Under the pieces are notes generated by a model, which saw only the letters and a program-made list of their open reading frames with translations, searched no databases and was not told the DNA's origin. Positions 3,824 through 25,261 of a stretch of 32,997 nucleotides of DNA are shown here, piece after piece (positions within the stretch are counted from its first letter, which is position 1; the number at the start of each line of letters is the position of its first letter). The DNA comes from an uncultured Thermomicrobiales bacterium (GTDB lineage: Bacteria; Chloroflexota; Chloroflexia; Thermomicrobiales; UBA6265). The position numbers and the translations under genes were made by a program. The stretch covers positions 1 through 32,997 of the forward strand of contig CADCWI010000041.1 of NCBI GenBank assembly GCA_902806355.1, in the 5' to 3' direction.

Positions 3824-3844
3824 ACATCGCCCGGGTGACTGCTT

Positions 3845-5278: not shown

Positions 5279-7727
5279 ATACGCACCAGCACATCAACCG
5301 CTGGCGTTACCCGCGCCTCCCGCAACGGTCCACTTCATCGGAATCGGTGGAGTGAGCATGAGCGGTATCGCCCAGATGCTGGTTGCGCAGGGCTATGCCG
5401 TGACCGGCTCCGACATTGCCCGATCGGCTCAGACACGGGCACTCGAAGAGCACGGCGTGACTCTCGTGATCGGGCACTCCGATCCGGCCCTCGCCGGTTC
5501 GGCCGATATCGTCGTTTCAACTCGTCGGGCTGAGCTCCAGGCCGCCACGGAACTGGCGGCGGCACGGGCGAATGGGGCGCTAATCGTGAAGCGCGGGCAA
5601 CTCCTCGGGATGCTCGCGAACGTCAAGCGGTCACTCGCGGTTGCTGGTACCCACGGCAAGTCCACCACGACCGGAATGGTTACACATGCCCTCGCCGAGA
5701 TGGGCGCGGACCCGAGCTATGCCACCGGCGCGGTGATCCCGTCGCTTGGCGGCACGACTGGTTTCGGAGCAGGACCGTTCATGACGGTCGAGGCGGACGA
5801 GTTCGACCGGTCCTTTCTCTGGCTGCGTCCAGAAGTTGCCATCATCACGTCCGTCAGCTTCGATCACCCCGATATCTACGAGTCACAGGACGAGTACGAC
5901 GATGCGTTCCAGACGTTCGCCCGGGGCATTTCGCCAGGCGGAACACTGGTGATCGCGGGAGACGATCTTGGAGCGTCGCGGGTGCTCCAAGGATTGGGGG
6001 AACCTCGGAATTTGCCTTTCGCGGTTGTCACATTCGGAGAGGGCGGTGACAGGGTCAGTGACTGGAGACTCGAGTGGGACGGCAGAAGCTGCACGTTCAT
6101 CGAACCCAACGCGCGATCGCATTCCGTGCGCCTTGCGGTCCCTGGAAAACACAACGCGCGCAACGCGATCGCCGCGACGGCGGCTCTCGTCGCGCTGGGG
6201 TTCAGCGCCTCGGAATCGATCGCGGCAATCGAGACGTTCACCGGAGTCGGTCGGCGCTTCGAGCATAAGGGCACCTTCAACAGTGTTGATGTTGTAGACG
6301 ACTACGCTCACCATCCCGACGAGATCGCGGCCGTGCTTGCTGCAGGCCGCGACACATTTTCCGGGCGGCGCATCGTGGCGGTGCATCAACCGCACACCTA
6401 CTCTCGCACGAAAAAGCTCCTCGCCGAGTTTGCTGTGTCGCTGGACGATGCCGACGAAATCGTGTTGCTCGATATCTATCCCTCAGGAGAGCAGGACACG
6501 CTTGGAATCTCCTCTGCCGATATCCTCTCCCGGCTCCGGAAGCCCGCACATCCCGCATCGGGGCCCGAGGATGCCGCTCGGATCACCGCCAGCATCGTCC
6601 GGCCAGGTGACGTCGTGCTCACACTCGGCGCAGGTGACATCACACGAACCGGCGCCCTCCTCGGTTCGTTGCTGCGCGAGGCAGGTACGAACCAGGCAGA
6701 GAAGGACGGCGGCAGGCGGGACGGAACAGCAGATGCCGCACCGCGAACGCCTCCTCGCCCGAAGCGGAAAACGGCTCCTTCCTTCGCGCTTCCCGGTGCC
6801 CCGGATCTTCGAGTCATCGAAGGCGCGTCGATGGCGATGTACACCACGGTGAGGCTGGGAGGAAACGCCGACTTCCTGATCCGCGTCCAGCACCCTGATC
6901 AGTTCGCGACAGCCGTGCGTTGGGCCTACTCGGAGGAAATGCCGCTCACCGTGATCGGCGGAGGCAGCAACCTGCTCGTCAGCGACGAAGGGATCCGTGG
7001 AGTGGTGATCGTCGCTCGCACGCCCGGGGATCGAGCGATGCCCTTGCTGGACGCTGAAGACCGCGACGACCATGTCCGGGTGTCGGTGGCGGCGCAGGCG
7101 CCTCTCTCATGGGTAGGACGCCATTGCGCCGAGCAGGGATGGTCCGGCATGGATTGGGGCGTTGGTCTTCCAGGTCAGATCGGTGGTGCGACGGTGAACA
7201 ACGCGGGAGCTCATGGTACGGAGCTCAAGGATCATCTCGCCGCGATCGATATCCTGCTCGACTCCGGCGAGATCGAACGCAAGCCTGCGTCCTGGCTGGA
7301 GCCAGCCTATCGCATGACGCGGATCAAGGGAGCACCGCGTCCACGCCCATGGCTGGTCGTGCGTTCGATCTTCGATCTCCGGAAAGATGACCCACAGAAG
7401 CTGATCGCGCTCGCCGATGATCATGCCGCATTCCGCAAGCGAACCCAGCCGACTGGCGCATGCTCAGGCTCGACGTTTGCCAATCCGCCCGGGGACTTCG
7501 CTGGCCGGCTGCTCGAAGAAGCCGGGCTCAAGGGGCACAAGATCGGTGCGATGCAACTCTCCCCAAAGCACGCGAACTGGGTGGTCAACACGGGTGGCGG
7601 TACCGCTGCCGATGCCTGGACACTGATCCAGTTCGCGCGTTCCACCGTCGCGGAGCGGTTTGGCGTCGATCTGCGGCCGGAGATCGAGCGCGTGGGAGAA
7701 GGCGTGGAATTCAACGCCGGACACTGA
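5271..7727 (+). CDS. murC-murB: Fused MurC-MurB: UDP-MurNAc--L-Ala ligase / UDP-MurNAc dehydrogenase
   Basis: An 818-aa bifunctional protein. Residues about 1-473 are MurC: VHFIGIGGVSMSGIAQML, P-loop AGTHGKSTTTGM (about 124-135), EADEFDRSFLWL, VSFDHPDIYE and DDYAHHPDEI. A charged Pro/Arg/Lys-rich linker spans about 474-515. Residues about 516-818 are MurB, the FAD enzyme: YTTVRLGGNADFLI, VIGGGSNLLVSDEGIRG, GLPGQIGGATVNNAGAHG and SGSTFANPPGDFAGRLLEEAGLKG, where the catalytic Ser is expected in GSTFANP. MurB reduces enolpyruvyl-UDP-GlcNAc to UDP-MurNAc, and MurC then adds L-Ala, so the fusion joins consecutive steps, with the later enzyme at the N-terminus. There is no stop or frameshift at the junction. 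The start overlaps murD by 8 nt. Fused MurB/MurC proteins are known elsewhere, so this is uncommon rather than unique. Confidence 0.94.
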   Translation: MNEYAPAHQPLALPAPPATVHFIGIGGVSMSGIAQMLVAQGYAVTGSDIARSAQTRALEEHGVTLVIGHSDPALAGSADIVVSTRRAELQAATELAAARANGALIVKRGQLLGMLANVKRSLAVAGTHGKSTTTGMVTHALAEMGADPSYATGAVIPSLGGTTGFGAGPFMTVEADEFDRSFLWLRPEVAIITSVSFDHPDIYESQDEYDDAFQTFARGISPGGTLVIAGDDLGASRVLQGLGEPRNLPFAVVTFGEGGDRVSDWRLEWDGRSCTFIEPNARSHSVRLAVPGKHNARNAIAATAALVALGFSASESIAAIETFTGVGRRFEHKGTFNSVDVVDDYAHHPDEIAAVLAAGRDTFSGRRIVAVHQPHTYSRTKKLLAEFAVSLDDADEIVLLDIYPSGEQDTLGISSADILSRLRKPAHPASGPEDAARITASIVRPGDVVLTLGAGDITRTGALLGSLLREAGTNQAEKDGGRRDGTADAAPRTPPRPKRKTAPSFALPGAPDLRVIEGASMAMYTTVRLGGNADFLIRVQHPDQFATAVRWAYSEEMPLTVIGGGSNLLVSDEGIRGVVIVARTPGDRAMPLLDAEDRDDHVRVSVAAQAPLSWVGRHCAEQGWSGMDWGVGLPGQIGGATVNNAGAHGTELKDHLAAIDILLDSGEIERKPASWLEPAYRMTRIKGAPRPRPWLVVRSIFDLRKDDPQKLIALADDHAAFRKRTQPTGACSGSTFANPPGDFAGRLLEEAGLKGHKIGAMQLSPKHANWVVNTGGGTAADAWTLIQFARSTVAERFGVDLRPEIERVGEGVEFNAGH

Positions 7728-7770
7728 TGTCTGTCGATGTCATCACACAGATGAACGAAAGAGCCAATGT

Positions 7771-8922
7771 ATGACCACTGATTCGAATGGAGCGCGAAAG
7801 ATCCGGGTGGCCCTTCTGTTCGGGGGCCAGTCGGCCGAGCATGATGTGTCGTTGCGGTCCGCGCAGACAATCATGCGCGCATTCGATGATCAGCGGTACG
7901 ACGTCGTCCCGATCGGCATCACCCGTACAGGGCGTTGGGTTTCCGGCGGAGATCCGATGGCGGCCCTCACCGCTGCGTCGCCGATGTTTCACCTCGGTGA
8001 GGGGGAGCAGGCTTCGGCGGTAGGTCTCGACGAGGAGGACACGTTCGCATTGGTGTCGGCTTCCGGTTCAGACGCGTCACCGGCTGTTCCAGCGAGCATG
8101 ACGCAGGATGTGGATGTCGTGTTCCCGGCACTCCATGGACCGATGGGAGAGGATGGGACACTGCAGGGCATGCTGGAGCTCTCGGGAGTTCCCTATGTCG
8201 GGGCGGGTGTGCTTGGATCGTCCGTGGCGATGGACAAGGCGATGACGAAGACCGTGCTTGCCCAGGCGGGTCTGCCGCAACTGCCGTGGCGGATGGTGCT
8301 GCGCAGGGACTGGGGGCGTGACCCATCTGCGATCACCGGGTGGATTACCGACGAGATCGGATTCCCGTGCTTCGTCAAGCCCGCGAACATGGGATCGAGT
8401 GTTGGCATTTCAAAAGTGACCAGCCCGGCGGAACTGCCGGCGGCGATGGATCTCGCGGGTCATCACGATCGCAAGATCGTGATTGAACAAGGTGTCGACG
8501 CGCGCGAGATCGAGATGGCGGTCCTGGGCAACGATGATCCGGTTGCGTCCGTCGCTGGCGAGATCGTTCCCAGGGACGGGTTCTACGACTACGAGGCCAA
8601 GTACATCGATGACTCGGCGGAATTGATCGTGCCCGCCAGAATCGATCCGGGCGTGCTTGCGACACTGCAAGGGTTGGCGATCAGGGCTTTTCAGGCATTG
8701 GACTTGGCGGGCCTGGCAAGAGTCGACTTCTTCGTCGAGCGAGATACCGGTCACGTGTATATCAACGAGGTGAATACCCTGCCGGGCTTCACGTCCATCA
8801 GTATGTATCCGATGCTTTGGGAAGCCAGTGGTGTACCGATTGCGGAGCTCGTCGATCGGCTCGTTGGACTCGCGCTGGAGCGGTATGCGGACCGACAGCC
8901 GGGAGACTATCAGCATGGCTGA
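7771..8922 (+). CDS. ddl: D-alanine--D-alanine ligase Ddl
   Basis: A 383-aa ATP-grasp ligase that makes the D-Ala-D-Ala dipeptide used by MurF. Motifs in order are LLFGGQSAEHDVSLRSA, PALHGPMGEDGTLQGMLELSGVPYVG, GSSVAMDKAMTK, CFVKPANMGSSVGISKV, IEQGVDAREIEMAVLG, FYDYEAKYIDD and YINEVNTLPGFTSISMYPMLWEASG. The YDYEAKY tyrosine in the omega loop is the residue set of true D-Ala-D-Ala ligases, which argues against a VanA-type D-Ala-D-Lac enzyme. ATG 7771 is chosen because homology begins about 10 residues later and a GAAAGAG site precedes it; the frame stays open upstream to 7660. It begins 43 nt after murC-murB, with a 15-codon reading frame bridging the two. Confidence 0.94.
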   Translation: MTTDSNGARKIRVALLFGGQSAEHDVSLRSAQTIMRAFDDQRYDVVPIGITRTGRWVSGGDPMAALTAASPMFHLGEGEQASAVGLDEEDTFALVSASGSDASPAVPASMTQDVDVVFPALHGPMGEDGTLQGMLELSGVPYVGAGVLGSSVAMDKAMTKTVLAQAGLPQLPWRMVLRRDWGRDPSAITGWITDEIGFPCFVKPANMGSSVGISKVTSPAELPAAMDLAGHHDRKIVIEQGVDAREIEMAVLGNDDPVASVAGEIVPRDGFYDYEAKYIDDSAELIVPARIDPGVLATLQGLAIRAFQALDLAGLARVDFFVERDTGHVYINEVNTLPGFTSISMYPMLWEASGVPIAELVDRLVGLALERYADRQPGDYQHG

Positions 8923-9045
8923 TGGGCGACGGCTTCGGGACAGAGACGTGCACACGTGCCAGGCGATACCGGTGCTCGACTGGCTCGCCGGCACTGGCAT
9001 TCGTACGCGCTGATCCAACATTCATGCTAAATGTTGTCGTGTGCG

Positions 9046-9074
9046 TCAAGGGCGTACGGGCACCGTGCTATACT
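9046..9074 (+). promoter_or_regulatory. Probable ftsZ promoter (extended -10)
   Basis: In the 359-bp ddl-ftsZ gap, TATACT at 9069-9074 is preceded by TG one base upstream (TGcTATACT), an extended -10. The -35 region at 9046-9051 (TCAAGG, 17-bp spacing) is weak, as tolerated by extended -10 promoters. The predicted start near 9081 would give ftsZ a leader of about 200 nt. Nothing else in 8923-9281 looks coding. Confidence 0.5.
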
Positions 9075-9225
9075 CTGGACGTTATGCGCGTCACTTGACA
9101 TTCGGCCCGCGTGTCGCCATGCGTGAAGGCGCGCCACGTGATCGTGGGCGTTTGGCGATCTCGGGAGCCGTGCACATGGTGCCAGAGTCGTACGTTGGAT
9201 TCCCGATATCGAAGTTGTCGCCGAA

Positions 9226-9252
9226 AGTGTCTCCGGACGGAATGGAGACATT
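9226..9252 (+). promoter_or_regulatory. Hairpin in the ftsZ leader
   Basis: TGTCTCC at 9228-9234 and GGAGACA at 9244-9250 form a perfect 7-bp inverted repeat with a 9-nt loop. One G-U and one A-U pair extend the stem to 9 bp (9226-9252). It ends about 30 nt before the ftsZ ATG, close to its ribosome-binding site. There is no T-tract, so a terminator is unlikely. A translational control element or protein-binding site is possible. Confidence 0.4.
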
Positions 9253-9281
9253 CTCCTTGAAATGTGGATGGTGAAGGGACG

Positions 9282-10562
9282 ATGCAATCCCGCGGACAGA
9301 ACCCGGCTCGGCGGCAGCAAGGCGTGCGCGTTCATGGGGCACCCGGCTCGGCACAGGGACAGCCCCGGCAGGGCGACGCACCTGCTCCCCAGGACGGAGC
9401 AGGCGCCCCTTCGCCCCGGTGGAGTTCGTTCGAATCACTAGCCCAGGCGTTTGCCCGGATCAAGGTCATTGGTGTTGGCGGGGCGGGAGGCAATGCGATC
9501 AACCGGATGGTGCGATCTGGTGTCGACGGCATCGAGTTCGTTGCCGTCAATACTGATGCCCAGGCGCTGATGACCAGTGAGGCGACCATCGCTATCCGCA
9601 TTGGTGACAAGCTCACCAAGGGTCTGGGGGCCGGTGGGCGACCAGAGATCGGTGAGCGGGCGGCGGAGGAGAGCTCCGAGAGCCTGACCGAGGTGATGAA
9701 GGATTGTGACATGATCTTCATCGCCGCGGGTATGGGCGGGGGGACGGGCACCGGCGCCTCACCGACCATCGCCCGGCTCGCCAAAGCGGCCGGGGCACTG
9801 ACGGTCGCGGTGGTCACGAAGCCCTTTGAATTCGAGGGGGGCCGACGCCGCCGAGCCGCCGAGGAAGGCATCGCCCTGCTTCGCGAGACGGTCGACGCCC
9901 TGATCACGATCCCGAACGAGCGCCTCCTTCACATGGTCGATCCCAAGACGACCGTCACCGAAGCGTTCCAAATCGCGGACGATGTGCTGCGGCAGGGTAT
10001 CGCGGGAATTTCCGATCTCATCACCAAGCCAGGTGTGATCAACCTCGACTTCGCCGACGTGAAGACGATCATGCATGATGCCGGGTCGGCCCTGATGGCG
10101 ATCGGGTACGGGGAGGGCTCGGACCGCTGCGTCAATGCCGCTCGGGAGGCGATTGAGAGCCCGTTGCTGGAGATGAACATCCAGGGTGCCAAAGGTGTCC
10201 TCTACAACATCAGCGGGGGCGGAAACCTGACCTTGTTCGAGACGAGCGAAGCGGCCGATGTGATCAGGGCCGCCGCCGATGACGACGCCGAGATCATCTA
10301 CGGGACGTCGATCGATGAAGCGCTAGGCGATGGGGTGATGATTACCCTGATCGCGACCGGCTTTGATGAGCACGATCAGCTCGACAACTACGGCATCCGG
10401 AACCTCGGACGCGACGACGCGCGGATGATCGATCGAGCGCCGCAGCGGTCCGCTGGCAATCAGCCGGTCCAGGCTCGGCCGGCCGCGAACGAGCCACCGG
10501 TCTATCCCGATGATGATTGGGAGACCGAGTCGTCGATCATCCGCTTCCTGCGCGAGCGCTAA
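9282..10562 (+). CDS. ftsZ: Cell division protein FtsZ
   Basis: A tubulin-like GTPase of 426 aa that polymerises into the division ring. IKVIGVGGAGGNAINRM, VNTDAQAL, GMGGGTGTGASPTIARLAK (the tubulin G-box), ALITIPNERLL and GVINLDFADVKTIM are diagnostic. The C-terminus ends SSIIRFLRER, a recognisable but diverged form of the conserved partner-binding tail (usually ..PxFLRxR). ATG 9282 is preferred because GAAGGG lies at 9273-9278; a GTG at 9264 in the same frame has no such site. About 55 residues rich in Gln, Pro, Gly and Ala precede the globular domain, longer than in most FtsZ proteins and probably disordered. ftsQ and ftsA, usually directly upstream, are absent. The gene has its own promoter and is followed by tandem hairpins, so it may be an independent unit. 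Confidence 0.96.
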   Translation: MQSRGQNPARRQQGVRVHGAPGSAQGQPRQGDAPAPQDGAGAPSPRWSSFESLAQAFARIKVIGVGGAGGNAINRMVRSGVDGIEFVAVNTDAQALMTSEATIAIRIGDKLTKGLGAGGRPEIGERAAEESSESLTEVMKDCDMIFIAAGMGGGTGTGASPTIARLAKAAGALTVAVVTKPFEFEGGRRRRAAEEGIALLRETVDALITIPNERLLHMVDPKTTVTEAFQIADDVLRQGIAGISDLITKPGVINLDFADVKTIMHDAGSALMAIGYGEGSDRCVNAAREAIESPLLEMNIQGAKGVLYNISGGGNLTLFETSEAADVIRAAADDDAEIIYGTSIDEALGDGVMITLIATGFDEHDQLDNYGIRNLGRDDARMIDRAPQRSAGNQPVQARPAANEPPVYPDDDWETESSIIRFLRER

Positions 10563-12962: not shown

Positions 12963-14132
12963 TTATCCGGCTGGCTGGCAGCCCGCACTGAGGAACAACT
13001 GCAACTGGACCTCCCCGGCGGGATCAGTGCCCGGCAGCGCGATCGACTCGCTCGCCAGTTGCGGCTCCGAGCCGTCGGTCGGCTCGGGCAGAAGCTGTTG
13101 GAAGCTTGACTGGATCAATCGGGCGATCGCATCCGAGAGGTCGACTCCGGGACCAACGTCGGGAGCACGCGACGAAATGTTGACGAACCCGATCCGGCAA
13201 TTCTCCCCCCGGATATACGGTGCAAGGGCGGTGCTGAGTTCCTGCCGTGCGTTGTTGATGGCTCCCTGATCTCCGCCAAGCACGCCATTGAGGTCGACCT
13301 GAATTGTTGCCGAGACAGAGACCGGGTTAAGGGAGTTCAGTTGCAGCTGCTGATCGAGCGCGACAGACGTCGCGTTGGCGTTCGATATCTGGGCACCAGC
13401 GGCCTCAGCGGTCGCTTGCGCGGCGGCGGACTGCGCCTGGCTCGTCGCGAGCGAGTTTTGGGACGCCGTGATAGTCGCCTGAGTGTTGACCCCGGCGTTG
13501 GCGCTCTCGGTAGCGGACGCTTGGAGCGCTGCCTGCTCGGTGGCTTGTGTGTTGACGACGTTGGCGCTCTCGGTGGCGGATGCCTGCAATGACGCTTGCT
13601 CGGTCGCCTGGGTGTTGATGGTATTGGCGATCTCGGTCGCCTGGGCAACACTGGTGGCGAGGTTGCTGTTGAGATCAGCGACGCTCGAGTCCGTGCTTGC
13701 GCGCTCCGTAGCGAGGGCGGCGATCGTTGCCTCGGCCGACGTTGCGCTTTCGGTGGCCTGGGCATCGGACGTCGCACGCTCGTCCGCGGTCATCGCTTCC
13801 CTGGTCGCGGCTTCGTTGGCCATCTCCGTTGCTTGGGCTGATTGCTCGTCGGCCGCGGCCTGTGTCTGTTGTGCCGCGGTATCCGCTTGAGCGACCTCAT
13901 CCTCCAGCGCTTCGACGGTCTGCCGGTTCTGGGCCGCGGCGCGGGAGAAGTTTGCCTCCGCCGTCTCTAACTCATTTGGGGTGGAGGTCGGCGTTGGCGT
14001 TGGCGGTTCCTGCCCCACCGTGTTGGCGACAGCGAAGAGCATGGCCAGCCCGAGCAGGAGGTCGGCGAAGAGCCAGCCGCCGAGCACGAACATGTCGTTG
14101 CGTGTCCGTCGTTTCCGTTTGTAAGGCTGCAT
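12963..14132 (-). CDS. Membrane-anchored stalk protein with MotB-like TM helix
   Basis: 389 aa, not a family I can name. The basic N-terminus (residues 1-12) is followed by one TM helix at about 14-38, FVLGGWLFADLLLGLAMLF, with Asp24 inside the membrane. The pattern W-x-F-A-D-L-x3-L resembles the ion-binding helix of MotB, TolR and ZorB-type stators. A PTPTPTSTP linker follows (about 44-52), then an Ala/Thr/Gln/Glu-rich region of predicted helix or coiled coil (about 55-270) with a repeated NTQATEQA(S/A)LQASATESAN unit. The C-terminal globular domain (about 271-389, ending in GCQPAG) starts VSVSATIQVDLNG. It sits where OmpA-like domains sit in MotB, but I do not see the peptidoglycan-binding motif. 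GGAGATAT precedes the ATG. It follows the coiled-coil gene by 71 nt in one apparent operon. Confidence 0.82.
   Translation of the reverse strand: MQPYKRKRRTRNDMFVLGGWLFADLLLGLAMLFAVANTVGQEPPTPTPTSTPNELETAEANFSRAAAQNRQTVEALEDEVAQADTAAQQTQAAADEQSAQATEMANEAATREAMTADERATSDAQATESATSAEATIAALATERASTDSSVADLNSNLATSVAQATEIANTINTQATEQASLQASATESANVVNTQATEQAALQASATESANAGVNTQATITASQNSLATSQAQSAAAQATAEAAGAQISNANATSVALDQQLQLNSLNPVSVSATIQVDLNGVLGGDQGAINNARQELSTALAPYIRGENCRIGFVNISSRAPDVGPGVDLSDAIARLIQSSFQQLLPEPTDGSEPQLASESIALPGTDPAGEVQLQLFLSAGCQPAG
13482..13624 (-). repeat. In-gene 63-66 bp tandem repeat
   Basis: GTTGGCGCTCTCGG recurs exactly at 13497-13510 and 13560-13573, with a third diverged copy near 13623. 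The period is 63 bp, then about 66. It encodes the 21-22 residue NTQATEQA..ASATESAN unit of the stalk protein. In-frame unit changes would lengthen or shorten the stalk without breaking the gene. Confidence 0.75.
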
Positions 14133-14203
14133 CAGATATCTCCGCTGGCCTCAGCCGACAGTGCCGAAGGTCGCTCTCCACCCCGCGTTGTGCCAGAGGC
14201 ATG

Positions 14204-15904
14204 TCAGGAGCGCGCGCCGCGGCCCCAGGCGGGCCGGGAACCTCCACTTACCGGCTCTTCCGGGGATGGCTCCGGATCGCGGTCGACGCGGATGGAACCG
14301 GGTGATTGCTGGATCAGCCGGTTGAGCGTGGTCGCAAGTCCGTCGAGTCGCTGCACGAGGTGCTGCAGATCCTGGTTGATCTCGCGTTGGCGCTGAGCGG
14401 TGTTCAGGCCAACCGAGCCCATATCCCGGGCGACTTGCGAAATCTCCTTGGCGATGTCGCCCTGGCGGGAAAGCAGTCCGGAAAGGGCGTTGGCCTGCTG
14501 CCCGGTCTGCGTGCCCAGTCGCTCGAACTCTTCCTTGATCCGCTCCAGCCCGGTCCCGATCTCGTCCAGGGCGCGCGTGTTCGACTGCGTACCGGCGGTG
14601 GTCACGCGCAGCGCCTCGGCCAACCTCCCGTTAGCCTGGGTGTCGCCGGCGAGCGTCTGTTCGACACGCTCCTGGCTCTGGCCGATCTGACGCGCGATGT
14701 CGCCGATCGCGCGCACTGCTTCGGAGGCGATGCGTCCGGCCTGGGCAGCCGACTCGGCACCGGTGATGGCTTTGTCCGCGGTATCGGATAGTGAGTTGGC
14801 GGCAAGCGCGAGTTGCCTTGTCACCGCCTGATCGCTCTGCACCGCCGAGGAAGTCATCCGCTCCAGGTGCGAGATTGCCGTGAGCATGCTCTTTTGCTGA
14901 TCGGCAGCCGAACTCACCTCTCCGGTCAGGTCCTGGAGGGCCGTTTCCAATCCGGAAGAGACCTGACGGAGATCCACAAGGAGCCGGTGCATCTCTTCCG
15001 CTCCGGAGCGCATGCCCGAGGCAAACTTGCCGAAGTCGGCGAACTCGCGTTCCCTGCGCGTCGCCAGGTTCTCGAGTCGATCGTGCTCGACCTGGAGCTG
15101 CGTCAACAACTCCTGGCTGCTTCTCTCAAAGCGGTCTGCCAGGCGCTCGACACTGTCACTGAGCTGCGCCGGGCGATCGGAACGGTCACCGGCAAGGATT
15201 ACTGTCGCTTCGGCGAGGACGTTGTCGAATTCCGCCTGGAACGCTGATGCGGTGTCGGTGATCCGGTCCTCCTGTGTCTCGCGGCGACCATGCGTGTAGA
15301 ACGTGAGCAGGATCATCACGACGATCACCACCGCGTCGATGATCGCGACGGTTGAGAACGTTGGCGAGAGGACGCTGGCCTCGCCACCGAAACCGCGTTG
15401 CCAGAGGAGCAGGAACGGCGTTCCCGCTTCGTCCGGATTTGCATTGATGTAGCGGTTATACGCGAGCGCGGCTTCCGCCAATGCCGCCCAAGTCAGCAGG
15501 ATCGGCACGAGCACCAGAACGTTGCGAATCTTGTCGGCGATCTCGATCGATGACGGAGCGTAGCCGCCCTCACGGCGAACCGCATACACCAGCGACAACC
15601 GGTCAGTGTTGAAGGCTCGGCTCAGATCGACATCGGACCAGCGTTGTCGCCCGCGCTCGGTCGCCAGCGCATTGCCGAGGTCGCGCAGTCGTGCCGAGGA
15701 GCGGGGATCGACTTCCGCGAGTGAAGCCGCCATGCCATTGATCTCGCTGGAAATGTTGGCGGGGCTGGTCCAGACACTCTGCCCGCGATCGGGGTCAGCG
15801 GCGGCGGTGCGAAATGTTGCCTGGGAGCGTTGCGTACGAGGTTCGAGTGGCTGCTCGTTGAACGAGTCTGGGGATGACTGGGTTTTTCGGGTGCGTAGCT
15901 GCAA
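14204..15904 (-). CDS. Two-TM membrane protein with a long coiled coil
   Basis: 566 aa, unrecognised family. A soluble region of about 125 residues is followed by TM1 (about 128-149, VLVLVPILLTWAALAEAALA), a loop with NPDEAGTPFLLLWQRGFGG, and TM2 (about 184-204, STVAIIDAVVIVVMILLTFY). A roughly 300-residue region of heptad-rich helix (about 245-535) resembles chemoreceptor or ZorA-type cytoplasmic rods. The tail is Pro/Glu/Arg-rich. The MotA/ExbB signature GLLGTVxG is absent, so a proton-channel assignment is not supported. The start is TTG 15904, chosen because GGAAAGG lies 9 nt upstream and no earlier ATG fits. It is the first gene of a two-gene operon with the MotB-like stalk protein and is divergent from the kinase-repeat gene. 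Together these suggest a membrane complex with a cytoplasmic rod and an extracytoplasmic stalk. Confidence 0.82.
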   Translation of the reverse strand: MQLRTRKTQSSPDSFNEQPLEPRTQRSQATFRTAAADPDRGQSVWTSPANISSEINGMAASLAEVDPRSSARLRDLGNALATERGRQRWSDVDLSRAFNTDRLSLVYAVRREGGYAPSSIEIADKIRNVLVLVPILLTWAALAEAALAYNRYINANPDEAGTPFLLLWQRGFGGEASVLSPTFSTVAIIDAVVIVVMILLTFYTHGRRETQEDRITDTASAFQAEFDNVLAEATVILAGDRSDRPAQLSDSVERLADRFERSSQELLTQLQVEHDRLENLATRREREFADFGKFASGMRSGAEEMHRLLVDLRQVSSGLETALQDLTGEVSSAADQQKSMLTAISHLERMTSSAVQSDQAVTRQLALAANSLSDTADKAITGAESAAQAGRIASEAVRAIGDIARQIGQSQERVEQTLAGDTQANGRLAEALRVTTAGTQSNTRALDEIGTGLERIKEEFERLGTQTGQQANALSGLLSRQGDIAKEISQVARDMGSVGLNTAQRQREINQDLQHLVQRLDGLATTLNRLIQQSPGSIRVDRDPEPSPEEPVSGGSRPAWGRGARS

Positions 15905-16009
15905 GGGTAGAAACCTTTCCGCGACCGATGCAGGGGGTCGGATGTCTAGCGTGGTCCGCTACAATCGCGTGAGTTGTGAGGACACTCTACCATTCTACGT
16001 TGACAGTGT

Positions 16010-16019
16010 TGAACGTTCA
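16010..16019. promoter_or_regulatory. Palindrome TGAACGTTCA in the divergent promoter region
   Basis: The 154-bp gap between the coiled-coil gene (-) and the kinase-repeat gene (+) must hold both promoters. TTGACA lies at 16000-16005 and TACAAT at 15960-15965, but neither has a good partner. The perfect 10-bp palindrome sits 40 nt before the + start. Its GAACGTTC core recurs in the intergenic palindrome at 20979-20988. Confidence 0.3.
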
Positions 16020-16058
16020 TAATCGCCATGAGACTTCTACGAAACGAGGGAGCACACG

Positions 16059-18416
16059 ATGGACAGGATCGCTCGCTTCCAGAACGCGCTGCTCCAGCCT
16101 GACGTTCCAGAGTTCCAGATTCTTGGTGTGCGACCGGAACTCGACCATGCCGGACGACCGGTAGTTGTAGCGGGCAACAACGCCATGGTTGCCAAGCTGA
16201 TCCGCCGTGATGGCAGGCACGTCGCGTTCCGGGCAGTCGACAACTCCGACATGGGTGGTGACTGGCTGCTACGGCATACCGCGCTTCAGCAAGGGTTGAA
16301 TCAGGGGATCAGGCAGTGGATCCCGGCGGGCATTCGCGTCGTCCGAGGCCGCTCGTTCGCCGATGTCGTTCACCCTGGAGACGATGTCCGAGCAGGGCGT
16401 TCCACCGCTGCGGTAGCGATGGAATGGATCGAGGGACCGACCCTCATGCACACGGTCGACCGTGCCGCCAGGGCTGGTAACGCCGCCGTGCTGCGGGCGC
16501 TCGGCAAGGCGCTGCGCGAGTGCATGGAGGGGCTCGCCGCCGAGTCGTTCGTTCATGGTGACATCACCGCGCACAATATCATTGTCCGGCCCTCTGGCAG
16601 GCTCACCGTAGTGGACTTCGATACCGCAACCTGGCCGGGTTCGCCGCTTGGTCCGGGAGGAACAGGAGCACCCGGATATCGACATCCGACTGCCACGCTT
16701 CCCGGAAGCCAACGTGATGAGTTCGCGACGCTCGTTCTCCTGACGTCCCTCGCGGTGCTGGCCGATGAACCGGATCTGCGCCGGTCTTTCGGCGACCCGG
16801 TCTCGGCGCCGGATGGTGTCCTGATCTTTTCACCCTGGGATCTTCAGGACCTCCAAGCGTCACCCGCATATGCCGACATATCTGCCCGCGTGAGCGGAGA
16901 AACCGCCGAACTGATGCAACGGTTGGCACAGGCATGCCAGAGCACTGCGGACAACCTGCCGGGCGTGCTTGACGGCACGTTGCGTGTTGCTGTCTCGCCG
17001 GTGTCTCAACAGCCGGAGCCTTCGTTCGAAAAGACCTGGCATCTCGATTCGGCGCTCGAGCGCATTCGTTCCAGATACGGACCCGCGACGCTCGACGGTG
17101 CCCCTGCTGGTGCGAGCGTCTCCAAGAAACGAGATGGCGAGACGTTGTCACGCTCAGGTGCGGGAGGCTGGCCCGAGGTGGTCAGTCCGGATGTCTCCGG
17201 GAGCGGTCTCTGGCGACCGGGTAACGAGGACGATCGCATTCGACTGGTGAAGGCCATCGAGCGAGATGACGAAAACGAGGTGGCGTGGCTATGGGCGCGC
17301 CTTGCATCTGATCCTTTCGCGGTGATGCATGCGGGCCGTGTAGAGGATGTGCTTGCCCGGGGGTACCACCGCCGGATCGACCATGAGGTGAACCGTGGGC
17401 ATGACGACCAGGTGATCGCACTTGCGGAGGAAGCGTCGGAGCGGAACCTTCCGCTACCCAGGACTGCCCGTGTCGCCGTTCGTTCCGCACGGGAGCGACG
17501 AGATGTGCGGGCCGAGCTCGAGCGAGCCTTGCGGGAGGATGATACGGAGGCGCTTGCTGATCTTGCGGTCTCCGGAAGGCTGGTCGTGCTCGGTGATGCC
17601 GACCGGATTTCCCTGCAACGGGTGCTGCGAGCCATCGAGCGGCCCATCCTGGATCGGGCACTCGCCACCGACGATGACCGGATCATCATGCACGCGTACG
17701 ATCCAGCGCTGTTCGACGGCGATCTTTCCCTTGGCAGGGAGGAGCGCGAGCGGATCGAACTCGCAAGCACGCGTCAGGCCTGGGTGGATGCGGTCCGAAC
17801 GGCGCTCAAGCAGCGGCGAACGCACGAGTTGTTCGACCTCTTCACTTCTCCGCCCCAGGGAGGGGCCGAGCGTCTCGGTCTCGCCGAGCGGCGCCGGATC
17901 CGGCGGGAGATCGAGCGACGTCGAGCTCTCGACGATCTGGCACAAGCCGTCAAGGGGGAGGACGATGAGGCGATCATCGTTGCCTTGAACAAGGTCGAAC
18001 GCGTCGGCGCGCGAATCACTGACCGCTTCACCTGGGGCGCGATTCAGCGCGTGGTGGAACGTGTTTCGGTGATCGAGGAGCTCAGCGATGTGATCGAGCA
18101 GCGTCCGTTGGATTACGTGCGCCTGGCACAACTCCTCTCCGTGGTGCGATCGCTTGGCCTGACTGGTGATCCGAGATTGCAGGGCGACGTTTCGGTCGAT
18201 GCCCTGCAGCGGCATGTAGTGCGCTTTGCGCATGTTCGGCGACTGCGGGCGGCGCTTCAGCGTGACAACGATATCGCGATCGTGGTGGCGGCGATTCCCG
18301 ATCCGTACGATGCGCTCGATGAGCTCACCGAAGAGGAGCGGGATCGCGTCGCCGCCGCGATCATCGCCCGTCGAGCAGTGGATCGGCACTTCGTCGATGC
18401 CCGAGTCGCGAGCTGA
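16059..18416 (+). CDS. Kinase-fold protein with eight C-terminal helical repeats
   Basis: 785 aa. Residues about 15-290 form a protein-kinase-like domain. The catalytic loop is VHGDITAHNI (His166, Asp168, Asn173), the metal-binding motif is DFD (Asp186) and APGYRHP follows. The VAIK lysine is replaced: the matching strand reads HVAFRAV with Arg58, and no glycine-rich loop is evident, so it may be an atypical kinase or a pseudokinase. After a disordered linker (about 330-390), residues about 393-780 contain eight repeats of about 46 residues, each a helix like LxxALxxDDxxII followed by RxRIxxAxxRxxxxx. There is no TM. GAGGGAG precedes the ATG. Divergence from the two-gene membrane operon suggests joint function. 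It converges with the oxidoreductase gene. The substrate is unknown. Confidence 0.85.
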   Translation: MDRIARFQNALLQPDVPEFQILGVRPELDHAGRPVVVAGNNAMVAKLIRRDGRHVAFRAVDNSDMGGDWLLRHTALQQGLNQGIRQWIPAGIRVVRGRSFADVVHPGDDVRAGRSTAAVAMEWIEGPTLMHTVDRAARAGNAAVLRALGKALRECMEGLAAESFVHGDITAHNIIVRPSGRLTVVDFDTATWPGSPLGPGGTGAPGYRHPTATLPGSQRDEFATLVLLTSLAVLADEPDLRRSFGDPVSAPDGVLIFSPWDLQDLQASPAYADISARVSGETAELMQRLAQACQSTADNLPGVLDGTLRVAVSPVSQQPEPSFEKTWHLDSALERIRSRYGPATLDGAPAGASVSKKRDGETLSRSGAGGWPEVVSPDVSGSGLWRPGNEDDRIRLVKAIERDDENEVAWLWARLASDPFAVMHAGRVEDVLARGYHRRIDHEVNRGHDDQVIALAEEASERNLPLPRTARVAVRSARERRDVRAELERALREDDTEALADLAVSGRLVVLGDADRISLQRVLRAIERPILDRALATDDDRIIMHAYDPALFDGDLSLGREERERIELASTRQAWVDAVRTALKQRRTHELFDLFTSPPQGGAERLGLAERRRIRREIERRRALDDLAQAVKGEDDEAIIVALNKVERVGARITDRFTWGAIQRVVERVSVIEELSDVIEQRPLDYVRLAQLLSVVRSLGLTGDPRLQGDVSVDALQRHVVRFAHVRRLRAALQRDNDIAIVVAAIPDPYDALDELTEEERDRVAAAIIARRAVDRHFVDARVAS

Positions 18417-21236: not shown

Positions 21237-22787
21237 ATGACGATGTCCGCTTCTCGCACGATCGTCGCTGGTCGCTACGAAGTCGATCTGGGTCACCCCC
21301 TGGGAACCGGTGGCATGGCCACGGTCTACCGGGGGCGGGATCTGCGCGCGCGGCGAACGGTGGCGATCAAGATGCTGCGTCCCGAGTATCAATCCGATCC
21401 GGAGTCACGACGGCGGTTCCGCCAGGAAGCTCGCCTGATGGCGTTTGTCTCGCATCCGAACCTGGTTACGGTCTACGACCTGCACGAAGAATCCACCGGT
21501 TCGTGGGTCGTGATGGAATATGTTCCCGGTGAGAACCTCAAGAAGTTGATCGAGCGACACGGACCCCTGCCGCCGGAGGAGGTATTGCCCCTTTTGGAAC
21601 AGATCTCGGGAGCACTAAGTCATCTCCATGGCCGCAATCTCGTGCATCTCGACATCAAGCCACAGAATCTGATCGTAACGCCGGATGCCAGCGTCAAGCT
21701 CATTGATTTCGGTCTTGCCCAACCGCCGGGTCCGCGGCAGGAGATGGTGGGCGGAACGGCGTTTGGAACCGTGGCGTACCTGGCTCCGGAGCAGGCCAGC
21801 GGCGAGCCGGTCGATGCCGCGACCGATGTCTATGCACTGGGGTGTGTCGTCTACGAGCTGTTGACCGGTCAGCCACCGTTCCGGGCTCCGGAAGGACCTG
21901 AGCACAAGCGCCAGCTGATCCAGGCCCATCTCGAGCAGTTGCCTGTAGCGCCATCGACGGTGAGGTCGGAACTGGGACTGCCATCGTGGGTCGACGACGT
22001 GCTTGGATGGGCGCTCGCGAAATCCCGGCGGGATCGGTATCACGACGTCGCGACGTTCGCCCGCATGTTTCGGTTAGGCATCGAAGGGGAGGTGCTTCCC
22101 GAGTCGCAGCGCACCAGCGCACTGCCGGCTTCCGCCCCGTCGACGGGGCAGACGACCTGGCGCGCTCCCCGGATCGTGCTCCGGCGCAGGCCGGTTGAGA
22201 AGTACGACGACGATAACTTGGCGGATGACGCTGATGAGGCGCAGGCTGGTCCACCGAGGCGACCCATCCGCGCCGCCTGGCGAATGGGCGGTCGCGTGGC
22301 ACGACGCACGCTACCGATCCGCGGCGCGCTCTGGCGGTTGGTGCTCATCTTCGCGCTCGGCAACGCGCTGCTCGGCATCGTCCTGATAGTCCGGGACGGT
22401 CCGGCCGCGCTGGTCGAGCGGTTTCTTTCCGTTGCCCCTGGTGCGACTACGGAGGTTACTGTCGACAGCCTGAACCTTCGAACGGGCCCGGGAGTCGATT
22501 ACGACGTGGTCCAGGCCCTCGAATCGGGAGACGATGTTGACGTCACGGGCCTGTCAGAGTCAGCTGACGGTGAGCGCTGGTGGCCAGTCGAAGTGCAGAC
22601 CGAGGCCGGAGTCGTCCGGGGTTGGGTGTGGGGCGAAGGGTTGCGGCCGAACGAATGGACCGGACGCCTGTCGTGGATGCAGGGAATCGTGGAGCGCGGG
22701 CAGCGCATCCGGGATGATGTGCAGGACATGCTGGGAGATCTGCGCACCGTCGGGCCGCTGGGACATGTGCTGCGCCCGTGGTCGTGA
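21237..22787 (+). CDS. Transmembrane Ser/Thr protein kinase with SH3b domain
   Basis: 516 aa, PknB-like. The kinase domain (about residues 13-275) is complete: glycine loop LGTGGMATVY, VAIK Lys45, alpha-C Glu64, catalytic loop HLDIKPQN (Asp139), DFG (157-159) and APEQ. The usual HRD is HLD, so this is a non-RD kinase. A basic/acidic linker precedes one TM helix (about 368-388, LVLIFALGNALLGIVLIV). The extracytoplasmic part has a bacterial SH3 domain (about 402-470, SLNLRTGPGVDYDVVQAL) like those that bind cell wall or peptides. The topology is kinase inside, SH3b outside, suggesting envelope sensing. ATG 21237 or 21243 may be the start; neither has a clear ribosome-binding site. Downstream lie a small membrane protein and a two-component system on the same strand. 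Confidence 0.94.
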   Translation: MTMSASRTIVAGRYEVDLGHPLGTGGMATVYRGRDLRARRTVAIKMLRPEYQSDPESRRRFRQEARLMAFVSHPNLVTVYDLHEESTGSWVVMEYVPGENLKKLIERHGPLPPEEVLPLLEQISGALSHLHGRNLVHLDIKPQNLIVTPDASVKLIDFGLAQPPGPRQEMVGGTAFGTVAYLAPEQASGEPVDAATDVYALGCVVYELLTGQPPFRAPEGPEHKRQLIQAHLEQLPVAPSTVRSELGLPSWVDDVLGWALAKSRRDRYHDVATFARMFRLGIEGEVLPESQRTSALPASAPSTGQTTWRAPRIVLRRRPVEKYDDDNLADDADEAQAGPPRRPIRAAWRMGGRVARRTLPIRGALWRLVLIFALGNALLGIVLIVRDGPAALVERFLSVAPGATTEVTVDSLNLRTGPGVDYDVVQALESGDDVDVTGLSESADGERWWPVEVQTEAGVVRGWVWGEGLRPNEWTGRLSWMQGIVERGQRIRDDVQDMLGDLRTVGPLGHVLRPWS

Positions 22788-22876
22788 CACTTTCACAACA
22801 CCTTGTCAGCAAATCGTGATCGCTTGTCGGAAGGGCCACAACAATCGATGCCCATACTCATGAGTGTCAGGGATGC

Positions 22877-22895
22877 GGAAGGAACGATTCCTTCC
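22877..22895 (+). promoter_or_regulatory. Inverted repeat before the small membrane protein
   Basis: GGAAGGAA (22877-22884) and TTCCTTCC (22888-22895) form an 8-bp stem with a 3-nt loop. A competing pairing is GGAACG (22881-22886) with CGTTCC (22899-22904). It ends 14 nt before the AAAGGAG ribosome-binding site, so it may be an operator or a leader RNA switch. No clear promoter is visible in this 133-bp gap. Confidence 0.35.
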
Positions 22896-22920
22896 AGGCG
22901 TTCCGCAAAGGAGAGACACC

Positions 22921-23103
22921 ATGATAACCGTACTTGCGATCGTGCTCTTGATCATCGTCGGCGCACTGTTCGTGATGATGGCCGTTACGCCGATGGTCGC
23001 TGAAGCGGCACGACGGAGTGCACCGACACCAAAGTCGCTCGTCTCGCTGGAGCGGCCGGTGCCCGCCTCCTCGCGGCGGGATAATCATCAGCACGCTGCG
23101 TAG
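22921..23103 (+). CDS. Small single-TM membrane protein, 60 aa
   Basis: The ATG at 22921 follows a near-perfect AAAGGAGAG site, which supports this start over an upstream in-frame ATG at 22864. Residues 2-24 form one strong TM helix (VLAIVLLIIVGALFVMMAV). A 35-residue tail with Arg, Lys and Pro then ends NHQHAA. I recognise no family. It precedes the response regulator by 50 nt and is probably co-transcribed with the two-component system. Small membrane proteins in this position often modulate sensor kinases, but nothing in the sequence proves it. Confidence 0.72.
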   Translation: MITVLAIVLLIIVGALFVMMAVTPMVAEAARRSAPTPKSLVSLERPVPASSRRDNHQHAA

Positions 23104-23153
23104 CTTCGACACTGTGATGTTCGAATTCGAAGACTTCGATCCGGAAGGTGCAT

Positions 23154-23861
23154 GTGGCTTCGATCCTGCTCGTTGAAGATGAACGCGAACTCGCATCCCT
23201 CATCAAGCGGGAGCTGGAGCTGGTCGGGCACACCGTCCACGCGGTGTTCGATGGGCCGTCGGCTGTCGAGGCCGCGAACCGGCAGGTGCCTGACCTGATC
23301 GTGCTCGATGTGATGCTGCCAGGATTCGACGGTCTGGAAGTCACCAGGCGCATCAGGAGCACGCAGGCGACACCGATTCTGATGCTCACCGCGAGGTCGA
23401 TGGAGATCGACAAGGTCGTCGGGCTCGAGCTCGGAGCGGACGATTACCTGACCAAGCCCTTTTCGATGCGGGAGCTTCAGGCACGGATAGCCGCCATCCT
23501 GCGCCGGATCGAGCTGATCAAGGCACAGTCGCAACCCAGGACCGTTGTCGAGCGCCTCGATTTCCCCGATCTCTCGATCGACGTTGCCGGGCATGGGGTC
23601 AGGAGCCAGGGCCAGCCGGTGCAGCTCACCGCCACGGAATTCGCGTTGCTGCATTTGCTGGCCAGCAATCCGGGGCGCGTCTTCAGCCGGGAATTCCTTC
23701 TCGAAGAGGTGTGGGGCGACGATGTGGCGGTGTTCGATCGCACGATCGACAGTCACATCCAGCGTCTTCGAAAGAAGCTCGGCGGGACCGACTCCCCGGG
23801 TGACCTGATCGAAACGGTCTGGGGGGTCGGCTACCGTTTTGCCGCCCGACGGTCACCGTGA
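23154..23861 (+). CDS. OmpR/PhoB-type response regulator
   Basis: About 235 aa. The receiver domain begins ASILLVEDERELASLIKREL (acidic Glu/Asp pair), with LIVLDVMLPGFDGLEV (phospho-acceptor Asp), the LTAR switch residue and DYLTKPFSMREL (conserved Lys). The C-terminal winged helix is LTATEFALLHLLASNPG through DRTIDSHIQRLRKKLGG, the OmpR DNA-binding fold. The start is probably GTG 23154 because GGAAGG lies at 23143-23148; GTG 23148 in the same frame would overlap that site. The stop overlaps the GTG start of the sensor kinase (GTGA), so the pair is translationally coupled and very likely cognate. Target genes cannot be deduced. Confidence 0.95.
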   Translation: MASILLVEDERELASLIKRELELVGHTVHAVFDGPSAVEAANRQVPDLIVLDVMLPGFDGLEVTRRIRSTQATPILMLTARSMEIDKVVGLELGADDYLTKPFSMRELQARIAAILRRIELIKAQSQPRTVVERLDFPDLSIDVAGHGVRSQGQPVQLTATEFALLHLLASNPGRVFSREFLLEEVWGDDVAVFDRTIDSHIQRLRKKLGGTDSPGDLIETVWGVGYRFAARRSP

Positions 23862-25261
23862 CGCATCCGCCTCGGCCGCGACCGGAAGGCGTTCCCGAGC
23901 ACAACAGGGAACGGGAACCGGGTTACACGCACTCGCTGGTTCCGCGAATGGTCGTCATTACGGTGACGGCCCTCGTGCTCGGCGGTGTCATCCTCGTCGT
24001 CCTCGCACTGCTGGGGACGGGCTACTCGCTCTCGTCGCAGCCATCCTTGCTGCCCGATCTTGTCCGGATCAGCATCTTCTTGCTCGTGCCGAGCGCCTTC
24101 GTCCTGGTGGCCGGGGTCGTCGCCGTGCGGTGGGCGAGCACATCCATGTTCCGGATCCGGGTGCGGACCTCGATCCGCACCCGACTGATGGTCTCCCATT
24201 TGATCGCGGTGACTGCCAGCACGTTCATCTACGCGACGGGTGGATTCGTACTCCTTCTCCTTTTGCTGTTCTACTCCGGGTACACATGGTCCCAGATTCC
24301 GTTGCTCCTCCCGGAGTTCGCGGGCATAACGATCTTCGTTCTCCTTCAGATCGGGTTGATCACCTTGTGCGGCGTGGTCGTCGCCCGGTGGGCAAGTGGG
24401 TACCTCTCGAGACGGATCACGCGCCAGATCACCGAACTCGAAGAAGCGACCATGGAGTTCGCGGCCGGGCGGCTGGACCGTCGCGTCCGGGTGTTGTCAT
24501 CGGACGAGCTCGGACGGTTGGCGGAACGATTCAACTTTCTCGCCGGCCGGCTCGACGATCTTGACAAGCAGCGACGATCGTTCGTTGCCAATGTCTCGCA
24601 CGACTTGCGGACGCCGATCACGATCATGCGCGGGCATATCGATGCCCAGCTTCATGGGTCTGGACCGGACGCGCTCGACCCCCGCACGTCGTTCATGGTG
24701 ATCGAGCGCGAGACGCAGACGTTGGCCAAGCTGATCGACGACCTGTTTACGTTGTCACGGGTGGAAGAGGGTGCGCTCCCGGTGGCCCGCCTGCCGGTTC
24801 GGCTCCAGCCCCTGGCCGAGCAGATCGTGGAGAGCCTCCGTCCATATGCGCTCAAGACTGGCCGCGTGAGCGTGAATGCGAGCGTGCCGGAGGATGTGCC
24901 GTCGGTGCTGGGCGATGAGACGCGCATCACGCAGATCCTGAACAACCTGCTGCACAACGCGGTCCGGCACACTCCCGCCGGTGGTGTCGTGATGCTCACG
25001 GCACATGCCATCCGGAACGGAGCGGAGGTGGAGATCAGCGTTGAGGACACTGGTGTCGGAATTGCGCGGGACGACCTGCCCCGGATCTTCGACCGGTTCT
25101 ATCAAGGCGAGTCAGTCCGCGAGACCGGCGGAACAGGGCTGGGATTGAGCATTGTCAAGCAGCTCGTCGAGATCCAGGGAGGGAGCGTCGCCGCGACGTC
25201 CACGCTCGGCCAGGGCACACGAATCTCGCTTCGGTTGCCGGCTGCTCTTCCCGCTCCCTGA
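23858..25261 (+). CDS. Sensor histidine kinase with duplicated 2-TM sensor
   Basis: 467 aa. Two TM pairs (about residues 31-92 and 110-179) precede a HAMP domain (about 180-235). The HisKA motif is FVANVSHDLRTPI with phospho-acceptor His248. The ATPase domain has the N box NNLLHNAVRHTP, G1 DTGVGIA, F box FDRFYQ and G2 GGTGLGLSIV. The two TM pairs are internally similar: residues 56-103 align without gaps to 142-189, sharing LLP..., I.IF.L and GVV..RWAS. Almost no extracytoplasmic domain exists, which suggests sensing within or at the membrane. The start GTG overlaps the response-regulator stop. It converges with the HAD gene, the stops being 11 nt apart. Confidence 0.95.
   Translation: MTHPPRPRPEGVPEHNREREPGYTHSLVPRMVVITVTALVLGGVILVVLALLGTGYSLSSQPSLLPDLVRISIFLLVPSAFVLVAGVVAVRWASTSMFRIRVRTSIRTRLMVSHLIAVTASTFIYATGGFVLLLLLLFYSGYTWSQIPLLLPEFAGITIFVLLQIGLITLCGVVVARWASGYLSRRITRQITELEEATMEFAAGRLDRRVRVLSSDELGRLAERFNFLAGRLDDLDKQRRSFVANVSHDLRTPITIMRGHIDAQLHGSGPDALDPRTSFMVIERETQTLAKLIDDLFTLSRVEEGALPVARLPVRLQPLAEQIVESLRPYALKTGRVSVNASVPEDVPSVLGDETRITQILNNLLHNAVRHTPAGGVVMLTAHAIRNGAEVEISVEDTGVGIARDDLPRIFDRFYQGESVRETGGTGLGLSIVKQLVEIQGGSVAATSTLGQGTRISLRLPAALPAP

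Follow-up and report, generated by a model that had tools for sequence, protein, structure and literature searches.

A conserved three-gene unit of a Thermomicrobiales family as a candidate kinase-linked envelope sensor or motor

Introduction

Three kinds of described system come close to the locus reported here (the papers cited throughout are drawn on in extract). ZorAB is a motor of 5:2 stoichiometry that carries a cytoplasmic tail and domains for binding peptidoglycan (PMC11890865), and the non-flagellar relatives of MotAB are structurally diverse (PMC12505986). In the TerY-P triad, a TerY vWA protein is combined with a PP2C protein and a serine/threonine kinase; the kinases are reported with a C-terminal OB fold or zinc ribbon (PMC11090510), and TerY-P-type settings have been tied to conflict or defence (PMC11090510, PMC7699616, PMC4978471), as have GAP1-N2 settings to conflict (PMC7159879). 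Here we describe three adjacent genes on a contig of an uncultured Thermomicrobiales bacterium (CADCWI010000041.1, positions 1 to 32,997; this whole stretch of 32,997 nucleotides is called the window). They encode a kinase-fold protein, a coiled-coil protein with two transmembrane (TM) helices, and a protein with one TM helix and a long periplasmic stalk; the latter two are referred to as the 2-TM and 1-TM proteins. We suggest, at a probability of roughly 0.45, that the three genes form one envelope-signalling device, a kinase-linked envelope sensor or motor. The extracts of the literature on TerY-P, on Zorya/MotAB-type complexes, on GAP1-N2 and on the cell wall and kinases of Thermomicrobia contain no description of the 2TM-1TM pair or of the three-gene unit, and those of PMC7159879 in particular contain none of the pair.

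Results and discussion

The three genes are one conserved unit

The genes are arranged as a divergent pair of transcription units with 154 bp between them: the kinase-fold gene on the plus strand, and on the minus strand an operon in which the 2-TM gene is the upstream member, followed after a gap of 71 bp by the 1-TM gene. An open reading frame (ORF) check of the window found all three frames intact at the coordinates listed below. Chance frames are untenable because the products are conserved: 28 kinase, 388 2-TM and 174 1-TM proteins were matched, the first two counts including the query. None of the three proteins reached a Pfam cut-off. The original prediction had proposed a 2-TM coiled-coil protein, a 1-TM protein carrying a stalk and an Asp within the membrane, and a divergent kinase with eight repeats, and it was accurate in every feature measured.

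12963..14132, minus strand: 1-TM protein, 389 residues; intact ORF, 174 homologues
14022..14090, minus strand: TM helix of the 1-TM protein, about residues 15-37, motif GGWLFADLLLGL; from hydropathy and an alignment of 28
14061-14063, minus strand: codon of Asp24 of the 1-TM protein
13338..14012, minus strand: Ala/Thr/Gln-rich periplasmic stalk of the 1-TM protein, residues 41-265; from composition, alignment and model
12978..13331, minus strand: C-terminal periplasmic domain of the 1-TM protein, residues 268-385, predicted beta-alpha-beta-alpha-beta-beta, probably OmpA-like
14204..15904, minus strand: 2-TM coiled-coil protein, 566 residues; intact ORF, 388 homologues including the query
15569..15763, minus strand: predicted N-terminal cytoplasmic helical domain of the 2-TM protein, residues 48-112; from the model
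15464..15520, minus strand: first TM helix of the 2-TM protein, residues 129-147, with Pro134 and Thr138
15299..15355, minus strand: second TM helix of the 2-TM protein, residues 184-202, with Asp190 and Thr201
14312..15277, minus strand: cytoplasmic coiled coil of the 2-TM protein, about residues 210-531; from periodicity and model
15905..16058: intergenic region of 154 bp between the divergent genes; a simple scan covering part of it and its flanks gave no sigma-70-like promoter
16059..18416, plus strand: kinase-fold protein with C-terminal helical repeats, 785 residues; intact ORF, 28 homologues including the query
16146..16988, plus strand: kinase-fold domain, about residues 30-310, with Arg58 for the beta3 Lys, His166-Gly-Asp168, Asn173 and Asp186-x-Asp188
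17217..18284, plus strand: eight helical repeat units of about 46 residues each, with starts at residues 387 to 720

Among 158 genomes of the class, matches were found in 30 for the 2-TM protein, in 30 for the kinase (at 1e-10) and in 31 for the 1-TM protein. Within the order, the 2-TM protein occurs in 25 of 61 genomes, and all 25 belong to one family of 32 genomes. All three genes are present in 25 of these 32; five have none (G140, G149, G150, G154, G158) and two have a single piece (a 1-TM match in G135, a kinase fragment in G138), where it should be kept in mind that the genomes are mostly metagenome-assembled genomes (MAGs), and absences may be MAG gaps. In each of the 25 family genomes with all three genes, a single contig carries both the kinase and the 2-TM match, head-to-head on opposite strands, and the 1-TM and 2-TM matches share a contig in 24, the exception being G145, where the 2-TM match is at a contig end. 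A pattern scan of the genome contigs, using patterns from close relatives, returned 20 loci, all from Thermomicrobiales, Chloroflexia or Chloroflexi. The three genes are one conserved unit in this Thermomicrobiales family, as originally predicted; judged by its homologues, the window would belong to the same family.

The membrane pair

The 1-TM protein has a single hydrophobic peak at residues 15-33, with Asp24 inside it and six Lys/Arg residues before it. The run from G18 to L29, including Asp24, is invariant in the 28 aligned 1-TM sequences, and the motif was found again in nearly all of the distant 1-TM proteins. When 485 ORFs were ranked by a profile of the membrane region, MotB rows came directly behind the family itself (best E 0.19); the seven rows represent five distinct genes, two of them being present twice. 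The C-terminal periplasmic domain is probably OmpA-like; a PDB search using the 1-TM alignment gave no match. Residues 41-265, made up of 28% Ala, 14% Thr and 12% Gln, are predicted to be helical, and the length of this stalk differs among homologues. Within the stalk, window positions 13474-13637 contain 2.6 copies of a tandem repeat with a unit of 63 bp (76% matches), and the stalk may therefore change in length by units of 21 residues.

For the 2-TM protein, hydropathy peaks are seen at residues 129-147 and 184-202, and both helices carry polar residues that are kept in its family: Thr/Ser138 in 32 of 32 sequences, Asp190 in 31 and Thr/Ser201 in 30. Heptad periodicity is evident across residues 210-535 (autocorrelation 0.296 at 7 and 0.251 at 14), and in the predicted model residues 183 to 531 are almost wholly helical, with a pLDDT (predicted local distance difference test) score of 46-80 for most of the coiled coil. 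Several database matches of this protein fall in the coiled coil: the PADLOC ZorA match (E 0.001) is confined to it, and the chemoreceptor matches in the PDB (E 5e-11) fall in it, where designed coiled coils also match. In a fold search using the model, ExbB appeared at E 0.49-1.1 alongside unrelated helical proteins, which is uninformative and was not used; MotA and ZorA are absent from the rows shown, which excludes nothing. The labels SMC, JetC, DndD, LmuB and chemoreceptor were rejected as coiled-coil matches only, and the methyl-accepting chemotaxis protein signalling domain is not among the Pfam matches up to E 1. One source labels relatives of this protein 'methyl-accepting chemotaxis protein', apparently from the coiled coil alone.

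The kinase-fold protein

In Pfam the window kinase gives only sub-threshold kinase matches (E 0.0014-0.012). Its residues 117-305 match the PADLOC STK_OB profile at E 4e-11, in the kinase part only: the alignment spans just positions 107-292 of the 562 in the profile, and the C-terminus consists of helical repeats. An alignment of 28 sequences, the window kinase among them, shows no variation at Arg58, His166, Gly167, Asp168, Asn173, Asp186 or Asp188. The A-x-R motif (replacing the beta3 Lys), HGD...N and D-x-D are common to the window kinase and the kinases of two loci from the class search, L117 and L118; in the latter, PADLOC recognises the full trio (TerY E 1e-93, PP2C E 3e-42, STK_OB E 3e-66). 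Behind the kinase of this TerY-P locus (L118:6243-10811) there is an apparent second vWA gene, judged by its sequence start only. The kinases of L112 and L114 carry the usual beta3 Lys, and the vWA and PP2C proteins of these loci matched no PADLOC model.

The eight C-terminal repeats have a best mean pair score of 7.0, against a mean of 0.25 (standard deviation 1.16, maximum 5.68) for 60 shuffles. Their spacings are 44, 47, 44, 48, 48, 68 and 34; given the last two values, the seventh unit may be misplaced. By its sequence, the window protein has a kinase fold with TerY-P-type features fused to helical repeats, and we read it as a kinase of the TerY-P type whose neighbours include neither vWA nor PP2C, with phosphate transfer as a putative activity. 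The best NCBIfam labels, LanL and LanKC, were rejected, as they score 36 and 35 bits where the cut-offs are 650 and 575. Window positions 21237-25261 encode a second kinase, of the ordinary serine/threonine type, with a response regulator and a histidine kinase behind it, and an ordinary second kinase also lies near the three-gene unit in several family loci.

Distant relatives in Chloroflexota

An extended 2-TM alignment matches 36 of 400 Chloroflexota genomes, six of which are doubtful because they show weak matches in the coiled-coil region only (G217, G243, G287, G288, G385, G443). Our set of 25 distant loci consists of 20 regions from 16 of the 36 genomes together with L111-L115, five of the eight regions (L111-L118) from the class search; L116-L118 have no 2-TM gene and were excluded. 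Neighbouring genes were labelled by small home-made profiles and motifs, only partly checked by Pfam or PADLOC. With these labels, a 1-TM match adjoins the 2-TM gene in 20 of the 25 loci, a kinase/repeat relative lies at most 9 kb from it in 12, and vWA, PP2C and GAP1-type proteins (the last by motif) are each found in 10; a Pfam check of two loci, L149 and L156, confirmed GAP1-N2 and DO-GTPase2 in both.

The arrangements are varied. L164-L167 read vWA-PP2C-kinase-2TM with no adjacent 1-TM gene; L156-L158 and L163 read vWA-PP2C-kinase-GTPase-GAP1-2TM-1TM; in L149-L153, from large Chloroflexota genomes, GAP1-2TM-1TM stands with HSP70-like genes. L112 has vWA, PP2C, separate kinase and repeat genes and then 2TM-1TM, and L114 has the same parts in a different order. 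Genes that are separate in L112 thus correspond to a single protein in the window, and this fusion argues for a working link between them. In L159-L162, short 2-TM relatives of 250-260 residues, without the long coiled coil, lie beside a 1-TM gene, and the 1-TM match of L113 lacks the TM part in that frame. The membrane pair recurs beside several kinds of regulatory module. In one locus (L168:8196-10375) it lies among SMC/Rad50-type ATPase-like and helicase-like genes, labelled by sequence start only; this is a possible defence setting.

The original prediction took a kinase gene and a membrane pair that are routinely found apart as evidence against a common system. Outside the family this is half the case, since 13 of the 25 loci have a 1-TM match and no kinase of this type within 9 kb, and five have the kinase and no adjacent 1-TM gene (L155, L164-L167); within the family the genes stand together.

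Proposed mechanism and its main rival

We favour a minimal Zor/Mot/Tol-like sensor or motor in which a cytoplasmic rod couples the membrane pair to a kinase, ion conduction being putative. The 1-TM protein, with its helix Asp, long stalk and probably OmpA-like domain, would be a MotB/TolR/ZorB-type partner extending into the envelope; several 2-TM proteins would ring it, their two helices standing in, as a reduced set, for the pore-lining helices of MotA/TolQ/ZorA and their coiled coils bundling into the cytoplasmic rod. If the wall changed or the stalk came under tension, the pair might then shift, with or without ion flow, and the rod would relay this shift to the kinase docked through its repeats; alternatively, phosphorylation by the kinase might switch the membrane pair. 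In a bolder version, which we consider possible but less likely than not, the pair would represent a new and minimal class of ion-driven motors or gates of the envelope, whose channel subunit has only two helices. It would serve as a module for vWA-PP2C-kinase and GAP1-N2 systems across Chloroflexota, and one Thermomicrobiales family would have taken it into its core cell-wall/division region, controlled by a fused kinase-scaffold protein.

Some observations weigh against a motor. The original comparison with MotAB, TolQR and ZorAB is apt for the 1-TM protein, by its TM motif and probable OmpA-like domain. In the 2-TM protein MotA/ExbB homology is not detected: PF01618 (MotA/TolQ/ExbB) is absent from its Pfam matches up to E 1, and a profile comparison with only two MotA sequences gave nothing. 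The idea of an obligate motor pair is challenged most by five kinase-2TM loci that have no 1-TM gene alongside and, among their genomes, by G440, which has no detectable 1-TM gene at all; the other four have one elsewhere.

The lack of detected MotA homology and the five loci also lend weight to the main rival, in which the complex is a non-conducting receptor: the 2-TM protein would be a transmembrane coiled-coil signaller, the 1-TM protein a passive, wall-contacting stalk, only a mechanical signal would reach the kinase, and the MotB-like motif would be convergent. The similarity of the coiled coil to chemoreceptor rods and the short 2-TM forms without a long coil point the same way; against it stand the TM Asp and its flank, invariant in 28 proteins and with the motif recurring in nearly all distant ones, and the polar residues within both 2-TM helices. 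We regard this rival as quite possible, at somewhat less than even odds.

Chromosomal setting

In the window, the unit comes after rsmH, Mur ligases, a MurC-MurB-type fusion, ddl, ftsZ, nrdR, thioredoxin and a glycosyltransferase. The cell-wall/division cluster itself spans window positions 292-10562 and contains rsmH, two Mur ligases, the fused MurC-MurB-type gene (5271-7727), ddl and ftsZ. Over 18 family loci, where contig ends limit all counts of flanking genes, thioredoxin is found on the far side of the 1-TM gene in 10 (the remaining eight contigs end before, within or just after this gene), glycosyltransferase and nrdR in five each, and ftsZ and ddl in three each; on the kinase side there is an oxidoreductase in eight and an isomerase in seven. 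The locus of the window lineage is kept in place and is not a defence island. Since the unit is kept beside a cell-wall/division cluster, its everyday role is more likely to lie in envelope or division homeostasis than in defence against phages.

A conflict system of the TerY-P or Zorya kind, whether directed against phages or not, is an unlikely explanation here, and the defence option of the original prediction fits the window lineage poorly. In its favour, relatives of the parts occur in vWA-PP2C-kinase and GAP1/GTPase operons, which PMC11090510, PMC7699616 and PMC7159879 tie to conflict or defence, and a rod with a wall-linked partner recalls ZorAB (PMC11890865). Unlike a patchy defence island, however, the family locus is fixed beside mur-ddl-ftsZ-nrdR-trx and occurs in 25 of 32 genomes; a Pfam scan of 20 neighbouring ORFs found no nuclease or other effector gene; 49 pattern matches on viral contigs yielded no confirmed relative, and plasmids gave no match for two queries, the kinase and one distant 2-TM protein. 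A defence role is plausible for the relatives in GAP1-N2 or TerY-P settings and poorly supported for the fixed locus of the window.

It is very improbable that the kinase and the membrane pair share no function and only happen to be stable neighbours: the pair does occur without the kinase in 13 of the 25 distant loci, and adjacency within the family is by itself weak evidence because the whole region is syntenic there, but kinase/repeat relatives and the 2-TM gene are again neighbours, in other settings, in 12 of the 25 loci, and 30 of the 32 family genomes have either all three genes or none.

Should the kinase-linked sensor or motor be borne out, TerY-P-type kinases and GAP1-N2 GTPase systems would gain a membrane sensor or output for which we found no description in the extracts searched, a Zorya-style motor with a cytoplasmic rod would be linked to phospho-signalling, and a lineage of Chloroflexota known chiefly through metagenomes would have a candidate envelope regulator next to its cell-wall genes.

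Comparison with known systems

The unit shares features with each of the three systems and is identical to none. The window kinase resembles that of the TerY-P triad in its A-x-R, HGD...N and DxD motifs and in its STK_OB match, but the 20 neighbouring ORFs contain neither a vWA match (E 1e-8 or better) nor a PP2C phosphatase, the C-terminus consists of helical repeats in place of an OB fold or zinc ribbon, and a membrane pair is added. With ZorAB, MotAB, TolQR and ExbBD the window has in common a 1-TM protein with a TM Asp, whose periplasmic domain is probably OmpA-like, and with ZorAB also a partner that joins TM helices to a long cytoplasmic coiled coil; this partner, however, spans the membrane with two helices and shows no detectable MotA_ExbB domain. 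Compared with Zorya, a kinase stands in place of ZorC/D/E (the Pfam scan of the 20 neighbours gave no helicase or nuclease match that would suggest such effectors), and ion flow through the window pair is hypothetical. As for the 'GTPase-centric' conflict systems built on GAP1-N2 and DO-GTPases (Kaur et al. 2020, PMC7159879), GAP1 and DO-GTPase are absent among the 20 window neighbours scanned, whereas in other Chloroflexota the 2TM-1TM pair adjoins GAP1-type genes, at some loci with HSP70 genes and at others with vWA-PP2C-kinase.

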